From an uncultured Spirochaetota bacterium (lineage in GTDB: Bacteria > Spirochaetota > UBA4802 > UBA5550): a stretch of DNA of 39,349 nt. Made by a program: the position numbers and the translations under genes. The notes below the pieces were generated by a model. That model worked only from the letters and a program-made list of their open reading frames with translations. It did no database searches and had not been told where the DNA came from. Within the stretch, counting starts at the first letter, position 1. Every line of letters begins with the position of its first letter. The stretch lies in the NCBI GenBank assembly GCA_937872225.1, contig CALMRZ010000059.1, forward strand, positions 1-39,349, in the 5' to 3' direction. Positions 1 to 8,707 of the stretch are shown here, piece after piece.

Positions 1-273
1 GAAATTAATAGCATTTTTTATTCAAACCCACAAAATCTATGGGACAGCAGTGATTTTTTATAATTAAATATTGTGTTAAGGTATTTTATTACATCTTCAA
101 TTCCAACCCGGTAGTATCTAAGAAAACCATCGATGCGAAATGTACCGGCTCTGCGGCTGGTTTCTGTCCAGAATAGAAGTTGACATTTTCCCTGTCCCCC
201 GTAAATTTACATGCGTGATACTAAACGCCATGGCCTCCGGCATGGCGGGCAAACTGGAGAGCGTTGCATTGTC
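1..273. other. AT-rich leader region before the first receptor gene
   Basis: No convincing gene is seen in this stretch. It is clearly more AT-rich than the coding DNA that follows and probably holds the promoter of the AraC-type receptor gene. A GGAG-like element at about 256-260 is the only ribosome-binding candidate for that gene. The window edge cuts off whatever lies upstream. Confidence 0.5.
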
Positions 274-1980
274 ATGAACCGGGATTATTCATTTCAATCG
301 CTAATGGCGGTTTCAGCCGCTTTTCTGCTCATCATGATTGCGGGCCTTTGTTCCGCGGTTGAGGCCGCGCCGGTTAATCCTGCGGTGTCATCCCTGGCCG
401 CGCCGGTCTCGATCGCCGGGGAATGGAAGATCGCCATCGGCGACGACGCGAATTATGCGGCGCCGGGATTCAACGACGCCGCGTGGGACACCGTGAACCT
501 CCCGGGAAACCTCATGACCCGCGTCCTCGCCACAGCCGCCGGCCTCGCCCGCACCGAGGGAATCATCTGGCTCCGCAAGACCATCCGCATCGACCGGGAC
601 CTGCCGAAAGAGGACCTGGGACTTGTCCTGGGCAGGATCGGAAACGCCGATGAAACCTACTTCAACGGCATCAGGATCGGCGCAACGGGCGAGTTCCCGC
701 CCGCGTCCCACTCTATGTGGAACCATCCCCGCTACTACACGGTCAGCCGGGAGTTCGTGCGCTATGGCGCGGACAATGTCATAGCGGTGCGGGTATCGTA
801 CTACCTGTTCGGAGAAGTGCTGGGCGATATGGCCATCACGAACATGAAGGACTGGAAGGCGAAACGGGACATGGGGAAGTTCCTCCTCATCGACCTCTGC
901 TACTTCGTCATCGGCATGGGGCTCACCCTGCTGTTTATTACCGCCTTCTTCTTCATCAGGCGCCCCGCATCGCAGGAATACCTGTTCTACTGCCTGCAAC
1001 TCCTCTGCGGCCTCATCATGGTCATGGAGCTGTGCACGTACTGGGACCTGTACGGGTCGCTCCTGAACCGCTTCAAGATCCTAGCCTTCGGATGGGCGGC
1101 GGTGAACGTCGTGTATCCCATATTTCTCCACCGTATCTACGACCTTAAAAGAAAGAAGATCGAGATCGCCCTCTGGATTTACCTGGCCCTGGTGGTCCTG
1201 TTCGCCGTGATCTTCGTGGATACGGCCAACCTTCGCTTCAACGGCATCATCATGATCGTGGTTACCTATCTTATCGGCCCGTATAACATATCGTGCCACA
1301 TCTCGGCCCTGCGCAGGAAGCACCCCTACGCCAAGCCTTTCAGTTTCTTCGGCATCGTCATCGTCATCGCCGCCATCCACGACGGCGTCCTGTACCTGAT
1401 GAAATTCATCGGCGCCGACCTGAACATGTTCGGTTCTTGGTTCCAGTACATGATATTCCAGTACGCGGCCGCGGGGCTCTACGTGGGCACGGCCCTGGTG
1501 CTGGTGGTGCGCTACGCGAAGATCATGGACGACATCGAGGACCTCAATACCAGCCTTGAGAATTTCGTCATCGAGAACGCCCTCCTGAACGAGCGCCTCG
1601 GCGAAAAGGACGGATCCCAGAAGAGGGGGCCCTATCCGGTCATATCCGACATGGCCGAGGAGAAAATCCAGAAGGTCATCAATTATATCCACGAGAACTA
1701 TACTTTTGATATTTCCCGCGAGGGCCTCGCGGCGACCGTGGATGTCCACCCGGACAGCCTGGGAAAGCTGTTTAAATCGGTCACCAGTAAAAAGCTGGGG
1801 GACTATATAAATGAGCTCCGGGTCAAGGATGCCGCGAAACGGCTCGTGGAGACCGATGATAATGTCATCAGCATCGCCTTTTCCGTTGGTTTTGACAGCC
1901 TCAGGACCTTTAACCGGGTGTTCCCCAAATTCATGAACATGACCCCGGAGAAATATCGGAAAGAGTTCAAGAAAAGCTAA
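274..1980 (+). CDS. Membrane receptor: jelly-roll sensor, 7TM module, AraC-type DNA-binding domain
   Basis: Predicted one-protein signal transducer of 568 residues. A signal peptide (about 1-30) is followed by an extracytoplasmic domain (about 50-190) resembling the sugar-binding jelly roll of family 2 glycosidases, with WLRK, ADETYFNG and NVIAVR segments. Seven hydrophobic helices (about 203-415) match the 7TM diverse-intracellular-signalling type. A short coiled coil leads to a C-terminal AraC/XylS helix-turn-helix domain (about 460-568, with the second helix-turn-helix around SIAFSVGFDSLRTFNR). The ATG at 274 is preferred to the one at 211: it directly precedes the signal peptide, aligns with the paralogue at 3441, and has GGAG upstream. 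The protein would bind DNA while membrane-anchored. The N-terminal 410 residues are closely related to the diguanylate cyclase gene at 3441. The ligand is unknown; a carbohydrate-like molecule is an inference from the fold. Confidence 0.85.
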   Translation: MNRDYSFQSLMAVSAAFLLIMIAGLCSAVEAAPVNPAVSSLAAPVSIAGEWKIAIGDDANYAAPGFNDAAWDTVNLPGNLMTRVLATAAGLARTEGIIWLRKTIRIDRDLPKEDLGLVLGRIGNADETYFNGIRIGATGEFPPASHSMWNHPRYYTVSREFVRYGADNVIAVRVSYYLFGEVLGDMAITNMKDWKAKRDMGKFLLIDLCYFVIGMGLTLLFITAFFFIRRPASQEYLFYCLQLLCGLIMVMELCTYWDLYGSLLNRFKILAFGWAAVNVVYPIFLHRIYDLKRKKIEIALWIYLALVVLFAVIFVDTANLRFNGIIMIVVTYLIGPYNISCHISALRRKHPYAKPFSFFGIVIVIAAIHDGVLYLMKFIGADLNMFGSWFQYMIFQYAAAGLYVGTALVLVVRYAKIMDDIEDLNTSLENFVIENALLNERLGEKDGSQKRGPYPVISDMAEEKIQKVINYIHENYTFDISREGLAATVDVHPDSLGKLFKSVTSKKLGDYINELRVKDAAKRLVETDDNVISIAFSVGFDSLRTFNRVFPKFMNMTPEKYRKEFKKS

Positions 1981-2340
1981 CCTGCCTATTATTCACGTCC
2001 TGTTTGTGCATCCCTGACCGGCGAAAGCACCGATATCCCTGTCTATCGAGTCATTTTCTGCCGGGGAGATGTGTCTGACGATTATCGAACCCGATAGGGT
2101 CAGAGTAAAATTTCTATTTAAACTCCAATTGCCCGATAGTTTTCGGTGCCTATCTGGTTAATGAACCGATAACCATCGCATAATTGTTTACAGTAAGCTG
2201 GGTTGATTGTATACAGCAGACAATGTAAGATCGATCTTTGTTTGGCAAGACAACCGGACGGTTTTTATGTTATATAAAACCATACCGGCTGGATGGTTTT
2301 TAAGATCCAGGTTGAGATACTAGCAGATCAGGAGGAAGAC
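1981..2340. other. Intergenic region with dispersed-repeat copies
   Basis: No gene was recognised in these 360 bases. They contain several pieces of the repeat family found elsewhere in the window: a TATCG-AACC-CGATA inverted repeat at 2083-2096, GGGTCAGAGTAA at 2097-2108, CCGATAGTTTTCGG at 2133-2146 and ACCGATAACCATCG at 2165-2178. The sequence becomes AT-rich toward 2270, where a promoter for the lipase gene is likely, although no clean -35/-10 pair can be assigned. Confidence 0.6.
2083..2178. repeat. Dispersed repeat cluster (ACCGATAAC-type and GGGTCAGAG-type motifs)
   Basis: Contains GGGTCAGAGTAA at 2097-2108, the near-palindrome CCGATAGTTTTCGG at 2133-2146, which is the reverse complement of the consensus with one mismatch, and ACCGATAACCATCG at 2165-2178. 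The same motifs recur near 9.0 kb, 19.0 kb, 20.8-21.0 kb and 37.3 kb, always outside genes. Confidence 0.6.
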
Positions 2341-3258
2341 ATGAAAAGAATAGCTTTATTAACCATGGGTTTGTTACTTGTTACTTCTCTTCTTTATGCG
2401 GGAGGGAGCTCCAGTCAACCGACAAAATACCCTGTTGTCCTGATCCACGGGATAGCGATGAACGATATAAACATCCTGGGTGTCGATTATTTTTACGGCA
2501 TACAGAACGAACTTGAGGATGAAGGATTCACGGTCTTTGTCACCACCCAGGACTGCTTCAACAGCACCGAAGGCAGGGCCAGGGAAGTGTTCCAGGAGCT
2601 TCTCAACATCAAGGCGGTCCATCCGGAATATACTAAATTCAATATCATCGCCCATTCCCAGGGCGCCCTTGACGCCCGGTATCTGGTATCGAACCTGTCG
2701 ACCACGATCAACGGAAAAGTAGTAAAGGGCTCCGACCTTGTCGCTTCCATCACCAGCATATCGGGAGTACACCGGGGATCACCGGTGGCCGACCTGGTCC
2801 TCGGCATTCTGCCTGCCGGCGTGGCCCGTGACGCTGTAGCCGGTATCGTCAATCTCTTCTGGAAGCTCTTCTTTAACAGCGAAAATGCCGATTCCGAGGC
2901 GGCAATACGGAGCCTCGCAACGTCATACATGATCAATATCTTCAACCCCAACGTGAAGGACGTTCCGGGGATCTATTATCAGAGTTACGCCGGAAAGATT
3001 AAAACGATAACGCCCACCTTCCTGGTCTCGGCGCCCCTCAACGCCTATATCAAGTCCGTTGACGGCGCCAATGACTGCATGGTTTCTGTCAACAGCGCCA
3101 GGTGGGGAAATTACCGCGGTGAGATTACCGGGGCATGGTGGTGCGGCGGCGTGGACCACTTCATGGAAATCGGCCATCTGTTCGGCATTACGCCGGGATT
3201 CGACGCTCCCGCTTTTTACGCGGGCATAGCAAAGGATTTACAGAAAAGAGGATATTAA
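2341..3258 (+). CDS. Secreted lipase/esterase, alpha/beta hydrolase of the bacterial true-lipase type
   Basis: A 305-residue protein with an N-terminal signal peptide (about 1-20, ending near LLYAGG, with no lipobox cysteine). The oxyanion-hole strand VVLIHG lies near residues 32-37. The nucleophile Ser106 is in the elbow AHSQG. A plausible acid is Asp245 in NDCMVSVNSARWG and a plausible base is His273 in GGVDHFMEIGH. That order and those contexts match triacylglycerol lipases of Pseudomonas/Burkholderia type (LipA family), so it probably hydrolyses lipid esters outside the cytoplasm. The start at 2341 is fixed by a strong GGAGG at 2331-2335; the ATG at 2293 would precede that site. No lipase foldase gene is seen beside it. 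It lies between two paralogous receptors, which suggests but does not prove that they sense a related extracellular nutrient. Confidence 0.85.
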   Translation: MKRIALLTMGLLLVTSLLYAGGSSSQPTKYPVVLIHGIAMNDINILGVDYFYGIQNELEDEGFTVFVTTQDCFNSTEGRAREVFQELLNIKAVHPEYTKFNIIAHSQGALDARYLVSNLSTTINGKVVKGSDLVASITSISGVHRGSPVADLVLGILPAGVARDAVAGIVNLFWKLFFNSENADSEAAIRSLATSYMINIFNPNVKDVPGIYYQSYAGKIKTITPTFLVSAPLNAYIKSVDGANDCMVSVNSARWGNYRGEITGAWWCGGVDHFMEIGHLFGITPGFDAPAFYAGIAKDLQKRGY

Positions 3259-3264
3259 TTCATA

Positions 3265-3298
3265 AGGGGTCAGGGCGGCCCTGGTTGCTCTGACCCCT
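3265..3298. terminator. GC-rich hairpin after the lipase gene, related to the GGGTCAGAG repeat
   Basis: AGGGGTCAG at 3265-3273 pairs perfectly with CTGACCCCT at 3290-3298. An inner AGGGC/GCCCT pairing at about 3272-3282 is a second possibility. There is no T-tract after it, so termination is uncertain. The arms carry the GGGTCAG/CTGACCC core of the dispersed repeat family, so it may be a repeat copy that serves as a transcript end. Confidence 0.5.
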
Positions 3299-3440
3299 CA
3301 CCCCCCCTGTACTTGTATTGATTTTGAATTTTTCACCGGGAAAAAGCCTGCCGCAAAGGTAATTGAGTAAAAAACACCCTTTTCTGATAATTATTATCTT
3401 GATAAATTGCCCATATTCATGGACTATATTCAAAAATGCC

Positions 3441-5357
3441 ATGGGCCACACGTTCACGCTACAACTGTCAATTGCAGCATCGCTTGTCATTATTTCCCTG
3501 GCATCTGTTTATGCCGGCGGAAGGGACGCCGGCTCGCCCGTCGAATTGAAATCACTCAAAGAACAGTTTTCCCTCGCCGGTCAATGGAGGATAATGCTTG
3601 GCGATGATGCCCGGTATGCTGACCCCGGTTACGATGATTCCTCCTGGGACACGGTTGCCATGCCCGGAAGCCTGATGCCCTATATACTTCCCCGGACCGG
3701 CAGTATCAGCGGAATCCTGTGGTTAAGGAAGACCGTTTATATCGACCGAGACCTGCCGCGGGAGGACCTGGGCCTTATCATGGGAAGGATCTCCAATGCA
3801 GACGAGACCTATTTTAACGGCACAAGGGTGGGCGGCATGGGCGAGTTCCCGCCCGAGGCCCACTCCATGTGGAACCATCCCCGTTACTATCCGGTCAATC
3901 GGCCCTTTATCCAATACGGGGCGGACAACGTCATAGCAGTCCGCCTTTCCTACTATCTGTTCAGCGAGATATTGGGGGAGATAGCCGTATCGGACATGAA
4001 GCATTGGAACAAGGACAAGGACCTGGGAAGGTTCCTCTTCATTGATCTCAGCTACATAGTCCTCGCCATCGGCTTCGCGCTGCTGGTCGTGTATTCCTTC
4101 ATCTTCATGCTGAAGCCCACGTCCCAGGAATACCTGTTCTACTGCCTGCAGCTCCTGTGCGGTTTTTTCATGATGCTGGAAGTGTGCACCTACTGGAACT
4201 TCTACGGCTCCATGATGGCCAGGTTCAAGGTTCTGGGCGTAGCCTGGGCGGCCGTCAATGTCACGCACCCCATATTCCTGCACCGCATATATGACCTCAA
4301 GAGGAAAAGGATCGAGGCGCTCCTCTGGATATACCTGGCGGTCATCGTCTTCATAGCCCTGTTGTTCATCGATGACTCCAATATCCGCCTCGGGGCGATA
4401 TCCATGATTCTGGTCACCCAGCTTATCGGTTTTTACAACCTGTCATGCCATGTCACCGCCCTGGTGAAAAGGCATCCCTATGCCCTGATGTTCAGCTTTT
4501 TCGGGATCATCCTGGTCCTGGGGGCCATACATGACGGCTGGGCCTATCTTCTGAAGCTCTATGTCCTTGATGCAAGGGAGATCTCCGGCTTCTTCCAGGT
4601 CATGGTCCTGCCGTATGCCGCCGCGGGTCTCTATGTCGGAACGGCCCTGATCCTCGCGGTCAGGTTCGTGAGGATGATGAAAGAGGTCGAGGACCTCAAC
4701 GTCAACCTTGAGAAAAAGGTCGATGAAAGAACGTTCCAGCTGAAGGTCCTCACCCATGAGCTTGAGGACAAGAACAGGATCCTCTCGGAGGTGGCATTGC
4801 GGGACAGCCTGACGGGCCTCTATAACCATGCCGCCTTCCACGCCCGGCTTCAGGAACTGATCAACGAATCGAAGCGCCACCGTTTTTCGATATGCGTGGT
4901 GATGATCGATATCGACGACTTCAAGGTCTTCAACGATAACTACGGCCACCAGCTGGGAGACGAGATCCTCCTGCGGATTTCCGATATATTCAAGTCCGGC
5001 CTGCGCGAATACGACGCCAAGTCGAAGTTCCTGGAAGAGTCGGTGGGCGTAAGCACGCAGATTGTCAGGAATTACGACCTTGTCGGCAGGTACGGGGGCG
5101 ACGAATTCGTACTGCTCCTGCCCCACTGCGGGGAGGACGAGGCCAAGGTCGTCGCGGAGCGGATGTGCCGCAGCATCGAGGCGATCCGCCTGAAGAGTTA
5201 TCCGGACCTGAAAATCACCGGGAGCTTCGGTATCGCCATGCTGGACGAGCATACCGAATGCCGCGACAGCAAGGAGCTCATCGCCCTGGCGGACAAGGCC
5301 CTGTACCGGGCGAAATCCGAAGGGAAGAACCGGATATGCTACATCAGGTATCAATAG
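3441..5357 (+). CDS. Membrane diguanylate cyclase: jelly-roll sensor, 7TM module, GGDEF domain
   Basis: Predicted cyclic-di-GMP synthase of 638 residues. The layout is signal peptide (about 1-27), jelly-roll sensor (about 48-185), seven-helix module (about 200-410), a coiled coil with EDLNVNLEKKV, then a GGDEF domain (about 452-638) beginning RDSLTGLYNHAAF. The active-site GGDEF is intact. An RxxD inhibitory-site motif (RNYD) lies five residues before it, so product inhibition is plausible. Unusually, about 21 residues are inserted just upstream, with a second RxxD-like REYD at the other end. The ATG at 3441 aligns with the start of the paralogue at 274. A TTG at 3363 with AAAGG upstream would add 26 residues rich in isoleucine and is less likely. 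The sensor half is very close to that of the AraC receptor, pointing to duplication followed by an output swap. Confidence 0.87.
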   Translation: MGHTFTLQLSIAASLVIISLASVYAGGRDAGSPVELKSLKEQFSLAGQWRIMLGDDARYADPGYDDSSWDTVAMPGSLMPYILPRTGSISGILWLRKTVYIDRDLPREDLGLIMGRISNADETYFNGTRVGGMGEFPPEAHSMWNHPRYYPVNRPFIQYGADNVIAVRLSYYLFSEILGEIAVSDMKHWNKDKDLGRFLFIDLSYIVLAIGFALLVVYSFIFMLKPTSQEYLFYCLQLLCGFFMMLEVCTYWNFYGSMMARFKVLGVAWAAVNVTHPIFLHRIYDLKRKRIEALLWIYLAVIVFIALLFIDDSNIRLGAISMILVTQLIGFYNLSCHVTALVKRHPYALMFSFFGIILVLGAIHDGWAYLLKLYVLDAREISGFFQVMVLPYAAAGLYVGTALILAVRFVRMMKEVEDLNVNLEKKVDERTFQLKVLTHELEDKNRILSEVALRDSLTGLYNHAAFHARLQELINESKRHRFSICVVMIDIDDFKVFNDNYGHQLGDEILLRISDIFKSGLREYDAKSKFLEESVGVSTQIVRNYDLVGRYGGDEFVLLLPHCGEDEAKVVAERMCRSIEAIRLKSYPDLKITGSFGIAMLDEHTECRDSKELIALADKALYRAKSEGKNRICYIRYQ

Positions 5358-5412: not shown

Positions 5413-5793
5413 ATGAAACGGATGATGGTCATGATTCTTGTCGCTGCATTGGGCGCGGTATCGGGACATGCCGCGAAACCGGGCCGGGACATCATCAGGG
5501 ACGCCGGCGCCCTGTGGGGCCGCGAAGGGGCCATGGTCACCATCGAGGGAACGGTGGCCAGGGAGATATGGCAGCACATGGTGGCCCCCCCGAAGGGTTA
5601 CGGCCATGAAACGTATTTTGACATGGGCACGTTCCAGATCGTCATCTACTCGAAGGATCAGATCGAATGCGACGGCACGGTCCGGGCCACCGGCACGGTG
5701 GTGAGGATAGAAGGATCGTCCAAGAACCCGCGCCGGAAGGAAGCCTGCACCGAGTACCACGTGGCCGTTGATTCGTGGGAATGCCTTAAGTGA
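5413..5793 (+). CDS. Small secreted protein of unknown function, possibly OB-fold
   Basis: A 126-residue protein with a clear signal peptide (about 1-20, cleavage after SGHA). The mature part alternates short beta-like segments (MVTIEGTV, FQIVIYSK, TVRATGTVVRIEG, YHVAVDSWEC), which is the kind of pattern seen in small periplasmic OB-fold proteins; that assignment is an inference from pattern only. Two cysteines near the C-terminus and one in DQIECDG could form a disulphide. A GAGG-like site lies just before the ATG. It follows the diguanylate cyclase gene by 55 bases on the same strand and may be co-transcribed. No family was recognised with confidence. Confidence 0.65.
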   Translation: MKRMMVMILVAALGAVSGHAAKPGRDIIRDAGALWGREGAMVTIEGTVAREIWQHMVAPPKGYGHETYFDMGTFQIVIYSKDQIECDGTVRATGTVVRIEGSSKNPRRKEACTEYHVAVDSWECLK

Positions 5794-6611: not shown

Positions 6612-7943
6612 ATGGGTTGGAAAGAAACGTATAATAAGAAGCTGGTTTCAATCAGTGACGCAGTTAAAGTGGTGAAGTCGGGCGATTTTATCTGCACGCC
6701 CGGAGGTCCCTGCGCCGCCTATGACCTCGTGGCCGAGGTGGCGAAGCGGTATGAAGAGCTGGAAAATGTGACGGTATCATCGGCCCTCATGATGCGGCCG
6801 ATGCCGCATTTTGAAGCGAAATACCAGGGGCATATCGGCCACCTGGCCCTGTTCCTGGGGCCGCTGGAGCGCATCTTCATGCCCCAGGGAAATATTAAAG
6901 TCAACTCCTGCAGCTTCTCGAATTTCGACGACCTCATCACCCAGGAGCTTAAGCCGGACGTTCTCTTCATGGTCTGTTCCGAACCCGACGAATGGGGCTA
7001 CATGAGCTTCGGTCCCGGCGGGGCGTCGGTTAATTACTCCATCCTGAAGACCGCCCGCGACGTCGTGGTCCAGGTCAATAAAAAGATCCCCTATACCTTC
7101 GGCACCCATGCCCACATCCACGTCGACCAGGCCACCTGCATCTGCGAGCAGGACTACGATGTCCCGGTGCTTCCGAACATCCCGATCACCGACGTGGAAA
7201 AGCAGATCGCGTCCCACATCGTTGAGCGCATCCCAGACGGCGCCACGGTCCAGCTCGGGTTCGGCGGCATCGCCAACGCCGTCGGCTTCTTCCTCGAGAA
7301 CAAGAAGAACCTGGGGGTCCACACCGAGATGCTGACCGACTCGATGATGGACCTGACGAAGAAGGGCGTCATCAACGGCGCGTTCAAGCAGTATTACCCG
7401 GGCAAGATAACCTACGGCTTCGGCGTGGGGTCCAAGGAGCTCTACGAGTTCATGCACCGCAACCCGATGCTCGAATCAATGCCGATCCATTTCATCAACG
7501 ACATCAACAACATCGCCATGAACGACAACTTCATCTCGATCAACAACGCCCTGACGGTTGACCTGACCGGCCAGGTCTGCTCCGAGTCGATCGGCTTCAA
7601 CATGTTCAGCTCAACCGGCGGCCAGCTTGATTTCGTCCGCGGCGCGCACCGGTCGAAGGGAGGGAAGTCCTTTATCGCACTCAACTCCATGTCGGTCGGC
7701 AAATCCGGGCCCATCAACCGCATCACGTCAACGCTCCAGCCGGGGACCGTGGTGACCACGCCCCGGTCCGATGTCCAGTACGTGGTGACGGAATACGGCA
7801 TAGCCGACCTCTGGCTCAAGAGCATCGAGGACCGCGCCCGCGCCATGATCGGCATCGCCCATCCCGATTTCCGGGAGAGCCTTGAAAAAGAGGCCATCGA
7901 GGCGGGCCTGATATCAAAGAAGGTGACGGTGGTGAAAAAGTAG
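6612..7943 (+). CDS. CoA-transferase of the acetyl-CoA hydrolase / 4-hydroxybutyrate CoA-transferase family
   Basis: A 443-residue cytoplasmic enzyme of normal family length. It transfers CoA between short-chain acyl donors and acceptors through a glutamyl-CoA thioester. The likely catalytic glutamate is Glu239 in GVHTEMLTD. A glycine-rich VQLGFGGIANAV stretch and the C-terminal VTEYGIADLWLKS segment are typical of the family. The closest type by eye is 4-hydroxybutyrate CoA-transferase; butyrate or propionate CoA-transferases are alternatives. A strong TGGAGGAG lies before the ATG. A TTGACA at 6485-6490 could be the -35 element of its promoter, but the matching -10 is weak. It stands alone, with no butyrate-pathway genes nearby, so the physiological acyl group cannot be named. 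Confidence 0.85.
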   Translation: MGWKETYNKKLVSISDAVKVVKSGDFICTPGGPCAAYDLVAEVAKRYEELENVTVSSALMMRPMPHFEAKYQGHIGHLALFLGPLERIFMPQGNIKVNSCSFSNFDDLITQELKPDVLFMVCSEPDEWGYMSFGPGGASVNYSILKTARDVVVQVNKKIPYTFGTHAHIHVDQATCICEQDYDVPVLPNIPITDVEKQIASHIVERIPDGATVQLGFGGIANAVGFFLENKKNLGVHTEMLTDSMMDLTKKGVINGAFKQYYPGKITYGFGVGSKELYEFMHRNPMLESMPIHFINDINNIAMNDNFISINNALTVDLTGQVCSESIGFNMFSSTGGQLDFVRGAHRSKGGKSFIALNSMSVGKSGPINRITSTLQPGTVVTTPRSDVQYVVTEYGIADLWLKSIEDRARAMIGIAHPDFRESLEKEAIEAGLISKKVTVVKK

Positions 7944-8080: not shown

Positions 8081-8707
8081 ATGTTAAACAACCCGGAAGC
8101 GACCGAGCAGGCATTGAAAATACTGCGCAGCGGCGCGACGTTCCAGTGGTACCTGATCCCGATGCTTGCCTTTGTCGTGTACGTCTATTTCAACGAGATT
8201 TCGAAGAAGAACTGGAAGGGAGTGGCGGCGGGCCTCTCGCTCTACATGGTGCACTGGTTCGTGGAGATCGTGAACGCCCTGATACAGCATTGTTCCGGCC
8301 ACGCCCTCTGGACCGTCCCCACGGGGACCGCGTTTCTCCTTCTCATCGGCGTGGGGGTCGAGCTGAGCCTCATGTTCTCCATCTCGGGACTCATTTTCAG
8401 CAAGGTGCTGCCGGAGGACCCGAAGATGAAGATCCTCGGCGTGAACAACCGCCTGGTCATCGCGGTCATCAACGCGGCGTTCTACTCGGTGTTCGAGATC
8501 TTCCTAGTGAAAACGCCGGCCTTCGTGTGGGTCTATCCCTGGTGGGGCGCCCTCACCGTGTTCATCACGGTGTACATTCCCTTCTGGGTGGTGTCGATGT
8601 ACTGCTATGACTGGGAGCCGAAGGTCCAGAAGATAGTTATCGGTTCCCTCTTCGGGGTGAATGCCGTCATGCTCATCGTCTTCGGCGGCATCTTGGGCTG
8701 GATATAG
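8081..8707 (+). CDS. Six-helix integral membrane protein of unknown function
   Basis: A 208-residue protein with six predicted membrane helices (about 20-40, 47-70, 83-112, 124-146, 150-178 and 184-208). Conspicuous polar or aromatic residues lie inside the membrane: HWFVEIVN in helix 2, ELSL in helix 3 and a WVYPWW cluster before helix 5. A strong AGGAGG site precedes the ATG. No family is recognised with confidence. The gene sits between two copies of an inverted C/G-rich repeat, so it may be its own transcription unit. A link with the CoA-transferase upstream is possible from co-orientation but not supported further. Confidence 0.7.
   Translation: MLNNPEATEQALKILRSGATFQWYLIPMLAFVVYVYFNEISKKNWKGVAAGLSLYMVHWFVEIVNALIQHCSGHALWTVPTGTAFLLLIGVGVELSLMFSISGLIFSKVLPEDPKMKILGVNNRLVIAVINAAFYSVFEIFLVKTPAFVWVYPWWGALTVFITVYIPFWVVSMYCYDWEPKVQKIVIGSLFGVNAVMLIVFGGILGWI

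Follow-up and report, generated by a model that had tools for sequence, protein, structure and literature searches.

Among described receptors, the closest to those considered here are the 7TMR-DISM proteins, exemplified by RetS, LadS and NicD of Pseudomonas and RgsP of Sinorhizobium (PMC6107284). They combine a periplasmic domain predicted to bind carbohydrate with seven transmembrane helices (7TM) and interchangeable outputs that include GGDEF, and are expanded in spirochaetes. Here, we examine a 39,349-nucleotide stretch from an uncultured Spirochaetota bacterium (contig CALMRZ010000059.1 of assembly GCA_937872225.1, referred to below as the window), in which three plus-strand genes encode an AraC receptor (P0001), a lipase and a GGDEF receptor (P0003). 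The two receptors belong to a family that, as in 7TMR-DISM, joins seven helices to an interchangeable C-terminal signalling module (AraC, GGDEF or SpoIIE); it differs from 7TMR-DISM in that its main output is an AraC DNA-binding domain. DISMED1 and DISMED2 gave no Pfam match in P0001, P0003 or a 40-member family alignment, the fold being that of a jelly roll of the glycoside hydrolase family 2 (GH2) type, while the 7TM model PF07695 gave 25.5 bits for the window receptor in a search of its own genome, below the curated 29, and 22-27 bits for a few relatives. Because the DISMED models are unmatched and the 7TM model is matched only under its cut-off, we file these receptors, which work like 7TMR-DISM, as a relative of that family and not as a member. 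True DISMED2-7TM-AraC proteins do exist in the same taxonomic order, where one precedes a lipase.

Three further systems bear comparison. Saccharophagus degradans has a lineage-specific expansion of membrane-anchored AraC paralogues beside genes for degrading external polymers (PMC2386152), an adjacency of regulator and degradative gene that recalls the one described here; there the enzymes are polysaccharidases and here lipases, and neither the jelly-roll/7TM architecture nor output swapping figures in the account of adjacency given in that paper. The window lipase resembles the family I lipases of Burkholderia glumae/cepacia and Pseudomonas in sequence, catalytic motifs and clustering of the family with the foldase PF03280, but is spirochaetal; in the related genome G003 foldase and lipase are separated by a receptor gene and, in the window's genome, very probably by an insertion sequence (IS) as well. 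The TetR-family lipid regulator FadR of Sulfolobus acidocaldarius (PMC6449355) offers a parallel to a palindromic operator found here upstream of lipid genes and also next to two TetR genes, the difference being that our operator sequence and regulon are predicted from sequence comparison. A literature search found no description of a 7TM-AraC receptor of this kind, and nothing on foldase-dependent lipases in uncultured spirochaetes.

One sensor module, three outputs

The features of the window that concern the receptors and the lipase are as follows.

180-207 (+): sigma-70-like promoter of the AraC receptor, TTGACA-16-TAAATT (10/12 matches in a consensus scan that, taken as a whole, shows no enrichment over shuffles)
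274-1980 (+), open reading frame (ORF) open from 211: AraC receptor P0001 (Pfam HTH_18, AlphaFold2, fold matches, hydropathy)
391-849, 856-1518, 1519-1617 and 1651-1971: its jelly-roll sensor, seven helices, coiled coil and AraC DNA-binding domain, respectively
691-738 (+): candidate effector loop FPPASHSMWNHPRYY, about residues 161-176 of P0001 (conservation in 32 family members)
2244-2267 (+): putative palindromic operator 1, position weight matrix (PWM) score 12.5, overlapping a weak -35/-10 at 2242-2271
2279-2302 (+): putative palindromic operator 2, ACCATACCGGCTGGATGGTTTTTA, PWM score 18.1
2341-3258 (+), ORF 2293-3258: family I triacylglycerol lipase, predicted secreted (phmmer, motifs)
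3441-5357 (+), ORF open from 3363, first ATG 3441: GGDEF receptor P0003 (Pfam), with its GGDEF domain at 4785-5345

For P0001, a start at 274 is likelier than one at 211, as a preliminary description of this locus also had it, because the promoter abuts the 211 ATG and transcripts would begin near or past that codon.

P0001 and P0003 align with 54% identity and 74% similarity over 446 residues (BLASTP, 533 bits), share the identical run SQEYLFYCLQLLCG, and cease to align within the coiled coil, some 20 residues beyond the last helix. Measured in 20-residue blocks, identity is 0.30-0.80 across residues 61-460 and falls to a background of about 0.1-0.2 just past, a likeness far beyond chance. 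The preliminary description had claimed nearly the same jelly-roll and seven-helix module in both proteins, with similarity that runs through the linker and then stops abruptly, and had proposed plotting identity along their length; the plot bears it out on both counts, and the two sensor halves are not distant relatives. Beyond the break, P0001 matches Pfam HTH_18 (67 bits, cut-off 33.6), its AraC domain with two helix-turn-helix motifs (residues 483-587) superposing on 3oou with Z 16.8 and a root-mean-square deviation of 1.3 over 105 residues, and also matching 6swi and 3w6v. P0003 ends in a GGDEF domain (142 bits) with an intact active site and an RNYD (RxxD) I-site at canonical spacing, RNYDLVGRYGGDEF, and by this signature is a predicted diguanylate cyclase. 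One sensor type thus feeds both direct gene control and, judging by sequence, cyclic di-GMP synthesis, as had been proposed.

An AlphaFold2 model of P0001, made with 40 family members as alignment (mean predicted local distance difference test score 87), places at residues 61-213 a domain matching the GH2 N-terminal jelly roll of beta-glucuronidases and beta-galactosidases with Z 15-17 over about 140 residues. Hydropathy and model agree on seven hydrophobic helices whose inner loops are positively charged, which by the positive-inside rule would give an orientation with the sensor outside and the output inside. The seven-helix part also matches G-protein-coupled receptors (Z 15.2); we do not accept this as kinship, since helical bundles score high. 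A loop at about residues 161-176, FPPxxxSMWNHPRxY, is common to AraC, GGDEF and SpoIIE members and is modelled in P0001 with lower confidence. It is our leading candidate for the effector site, and since the motif is near-identical in P0001 and P0003 a common ligand for the two is plausible.

The exchange of outputs extends well beyond this pair. Among 32 close relatives, the output joined to the sensor-7TM module is AraC in 22, a SpoIIE-type phosphatase in seven and GGDEF in three, and the 7TM-AraC architecture, previously held to be uncommon, is in fact the commonest form of the family in this order. The sensor tree requires at least six output changes, and the approximately unbiased (AU) test rejects a single origin for both GGDEF (p 0.012) and SpoIIE (p 3e-6). 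In all fusions of the family similarity stops 0-46 residues after the last helix, in the coiled-coil region. Outputs have been exchanged repeatedly across the family, and not in one event at this locus. P0003 and the GGDEF receptor of genome G004 form a pair (support 100/99) to which P0001 attaches next (99/92), and the output swap thus predates the arrangement in the window; a grouping of P0001 and P0003 as exclusive sisters is rejected by the AU test (p 0.003).

Close members (>30% identity) are confined to this order within what was searched, and at greater distance the sensor-7TM module has relatives in 123 of 393 genomes of the phylum, the named relatives of the window's genome being metagenome-assembled 'Spirochaetes bacterium' genomes. 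Same-sensor receptors may also be clustered, with a tandem of four in G005 (contig C41; locus L147, 3857-12353), three with SpoIIE-phosphatase outputs and one with AraC, and a divergent SpoIIE/AraC pair in G010.

AraC regulators upstream of foldase-dependent lipases

The window lipase, whose start at 2341 is preceded by GGAGGA, matches the family I lipases 1cvl, 1tah, 1hqd and 1ex9 (phmmer, E 1e-19 to 1e-24) and carries in order the motifs of the catalytic triad, Ser in AHSQG, Asp in DGANDC and His in VDHFME; its sequence identifies it as a foldase-dependent family I lipase, predicted to be secreted and enzymatically active. We examined 44 homologues across the order. An AraC-domain gene lies immediately upstream on the same strand in eight of them and downstream or on the opposite strand in none, which has a binomial probability of about 1e-8 at a background of 1%, itself an assumed estimate. 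The regulators concerned carry the present jelly roll (the window and G003), a distant jelly roll (G036), a DISMED2-7TM sensor (G007) or a cytosolic kinase-AAA-TPR protein (G022 and two in G035), that of G002 being cut by a contig end. The pairing involves three or more sensor types, and the lipases concerned are dispersed across the lipase tree. With the seven AraC-linked cases included in it, that tree needs seven changes, all forced by well-supported branches; the window's lipase clade may represent one gain and two losses, and the safe reading is five independent gains. The order of AraC gene and lipase has been assembled repeatedly.

P0001 and the lipase-linked receptor of G003 share 83% identity in their AraC domains but 57-58% over their whole length, a contrast that favours the circuit proposed below. 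In related pairings, 7TM-AraC genes precede a secretory lipase and a START protein, both in G016, and abhydrolases in G001 and on contig C10 of the window's genome, G000. The kinase-AAA-TPR regulators are Ser/Thr kinase proteins of about 1550-1640 residues with a C-terminal AraC domain, encoded directly upstream of lipases at L123 (2497-7170), L128 (5520-10148) and L133 (5744-10657), one of them with a GAF domain.

In G003 the foldase (PF03280) stands directly upstream of the AraC receptor, which is followed by the lipase, and G005 has the order foldase-receptor. The conserved neighbourhood envisaged in the preliminary description thus stands for AraC receptor and lipase, in G003 with the foldase in the cluster and elsewhere with other AraC regulators; it does not stand for the GGDEF gene and lipase. 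At G003:C9 (L110, 5048-9094) the receptor gene separates the lipase from its foldase, which is unusual, since the two normally form a pair. In the window's genome the foldase lies at the end of contig C16, 61-65% identical to those of G003 and G005, and the neighbour gene beyond it is also conserved in both; no foldase fragment was seen in window positions 1-210, where all frames contain stops. The left end of the window provides the link:

32-61 (-): IS end, with terminal inverted repeat CACTGCTGTCCCATAGATTTT at 32-52 and a 9-bp target duplication ATTTTTTAT at 53-61 (copies at contig ends)

The right end of C16 and the left end of the window carry opposite IS ends with the identical 9-bp flank ATTTTTTAT, and among 21 IS end pairs compared only C16-C59 and C10-C90 have a flank in common, both with opposite end types. 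Because these ends agree, and the orders in G003 and G005 agree with them, the genes very probably once stood in the order foldase, AraC receptor, lipase, until the IS split them here. Of the seven copies with CACTGCTGTCCCATAGATTTT ends in the genome, on contigs C1, C10, C16, C47, C62 and C90 and at window 1-61, six are no more than 60 bases away from a known contig end; the element breaks the assembly, and links C16 to C59 and C10 to C90.

A palindrome at lipase promoters

A palindrome of approximate form AAAAAACCGTCCGGACGGTTTTTT (operator AAACCGTCCGGACGGTTT) precedes 33 of the 44 lipases with PWM scores of 10-21, against a shuffled 99th percentile of 4.5 and a single shuffle that reached 9.1. 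The loci, 1.07 Mb in all, contain 49 sites compared with three after shuffling, most of them at lipases because many of the loci were chosen around lipases. Beyond the two copies in the window, the same genome has the palindrome in the divergent promoters of two TetR genes (G000:C33 and G000:C47) and before genes for a START protein, an abhydrolase, an amidohydrolase and a DISMED2-7TM receptor. The lipases of four genomes without this TetR group (G006, G008, G021 and G030; search threshold E 1e-25, which is strict) lack the palindrome, and most lipase genomes with the group have it, G002 and G016 being exceptions. Our best guess is that the palindrome is the putative operator of a TetR-type, probably lipid-related regulon that is apparently undescribed. 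An AraC site is disfavoured, since lipases that lack an AraC neighbour carry the palindrome too, and since it is symmetric, which usual AraC sites are not. Lipase loci at which the palindrome was seen include L128, L133, L125, L132 and L134.

The proposed circuit and its alternatives

The arrangement that we favour, with some confidence, is that a membrane AraC activator and a TetR-type repressor act at one lipase promoter. P0001 would be a one-component membrane receptor whose periplasmic, beta-glucuronidase-like jelly roll binds a ligand, the seven helices and coiled coil relaying the signal to the AraC domain on the inner face. From gene neighbourhood, the target of this domain would be the promoter of the neighbouring lipase, with activation the likeliest effect, while the palindromes would bind a probable TetR-type repressor of general, probably lipid-sensing function; lipase expression would then need both the receptor signal and release of the repressor. 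P0003 is a paralogue whose output was replaced at the coiled coil by a predicted diguanylate cyclase, just as the same sensor elsewhere appears to drive SpoIIE phosphatases. The promoters themselves fit such dependence on an activator: the TTGAC box, which is the -35 box usually following the palindrome, is present in 16 of 26 stand-alone lipases and in none of seven AraC-linked ones (p 0.007), and the palindrome is nearer the start in the latter (median 133 versus 171 bases to the start of homology, p 0.002), as expected if AraC-linked promoters rely on one.

Several points weigh against this circuit. The two groups of promoters were compared post hoc, and the rows in the comparison are related. 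A pairwise search for an AraC binding site came up empty, as beyond the palindrome the gaps that follow the 83%-identical AraC domains have no clear motif in common; 36 of the 44 lipases have no AraC neighbour; and the receptor of G005 does not adjoin the lipase of that genome. TetR as the binder is no more than probable, its grounds being the two divergent genes and co-occurrence. Finally, the GH2-type jelly roll is a general fold, so the ligand is not given by the fold.

Two alternatives deserve weight, each of them unlikely. The lipase might be controlled only by the palindrome-binding TetR-type regulator, with AraC receptors nearby through a common lipid-use neighbourhood and regulating other genes. 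The presence of the palindrome irrespective of an AraC neighbour, its absence from the lipases of the four genomes without this TetR group, and the lack of an AraC site in the receptor-lipase gaps would all follow; the invariable upstream, same-strand position of AraC, the independent repetition of the pairing and the altered promoters of AraC-linked lipases speak for the two-regulator circuit instead. To the same low degree we credit the view that the receptors are general sugar sensors, responding to carbohydrate such as a glycolipid headgroup or oligosaccharide and linked to the lipase in just one of their uses, and that AraC members mostly control other catabolic genes. The fold matches to GH2 N-terminal domains agree with it, as does another AraC member that precedes an amidohydrolase-cNMP-Crp operon; however, the residues shared with GH2 enzymes look structural, and several AraC members have genes connected with lipids beside them (a secretory lipase, a START protein and abhydrolases). 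The operon in question (amidohydrolase, cyclic nucleotide (cNMP)-binding/TPR and Crp-like genes) lies downstream of a 7TM-AraC receptor at L144 (8410-11541), where the domains were checked, and gene sizes resembling this neighbourhood occur downstream of 7TM-AraC receptors at L099, L100 and L146; the set is a second recurrent neighbourhood of such receptors.

The preliminary description had also tied the lipase to cyclic di-GMP, and this proposed coupling is the weakest part of that account. Downstream of P0003 the window continues:

5413-5793 (+): GGDEF block gene 2, a 126-residue probable exported protein (68% identical gene in G004)
6612-7943 (+): GGDEF block gene 3, a coenzyme A (CoA)-transferase of the acetyl-CoA hydrolase/transferase family (90% identical G004 gene; Pfam of the G004 copy)
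8081-8707 (+): GGDEF block gene 4, a 208-residue probable membrane protein (84% identical in G004)

G004 has the GGDEF receptor (66% identical) and these three genes in the same order, and neither a foldase nor a lipase of this family was found in it. P0003 belongs to this separate conserved block, and its juxtaposition with the lipase is lineage-specific; the claim of a lipase conserved beside the GGDEF receptor is not supported by the closest relative, which shares the downstream genes and has no lipase neighbour. That a single signal, produced or set free by the lipase, is sensed by P0001 and P0003 alike and coordinates lipase expression with cyclic di-GMP at the locus is quite improbable, since the near-identical loop FPPxxHSMWNHPRYY and the side-by-side genes on one strand that would favour it are set against a loop common to most of the family, which does not single out the pair, and a GGDEF gene that keeps company with the CoA-transferase block and not with a lipase; the lipase as maker of the receptors' signal is speculation.

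The receptor pair is confirmed and exemplifies a wider pattern, in which spirochaete receptors keep a sensor and exchange outputs, and the AraC form stands before lipid hydrolases; the preliminary description included neither the SpoIIE-type siblings nor the foldase, the operator or the fact that the GGDEF gene has a history of its own. Tentatively, and as a possibility more than an expectation, the family could be a bacterial counterpart of modular seven-helix receptors: one jelly-roll/7TM sensor and its ligand would be kept while the effector (DNA-binding, cyclase or phosphatase) is exchanged in the coiled coil, the AraC form would be a single-protein switch from membrane to promoter, and AraC receptors of several sensor types would have been recruited repeatedly to foldase-dependent lipases. 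For the lipases of uncultured spirochaetes, the proposed pairing of a membrane AraC protein with a palindrome-binding repressor provides a testable circuit, and one sensor with three outputs forms a natural series in which to study how a seven-helix bundle signals to unrelated effectors without G proteins or a phosphorelay.

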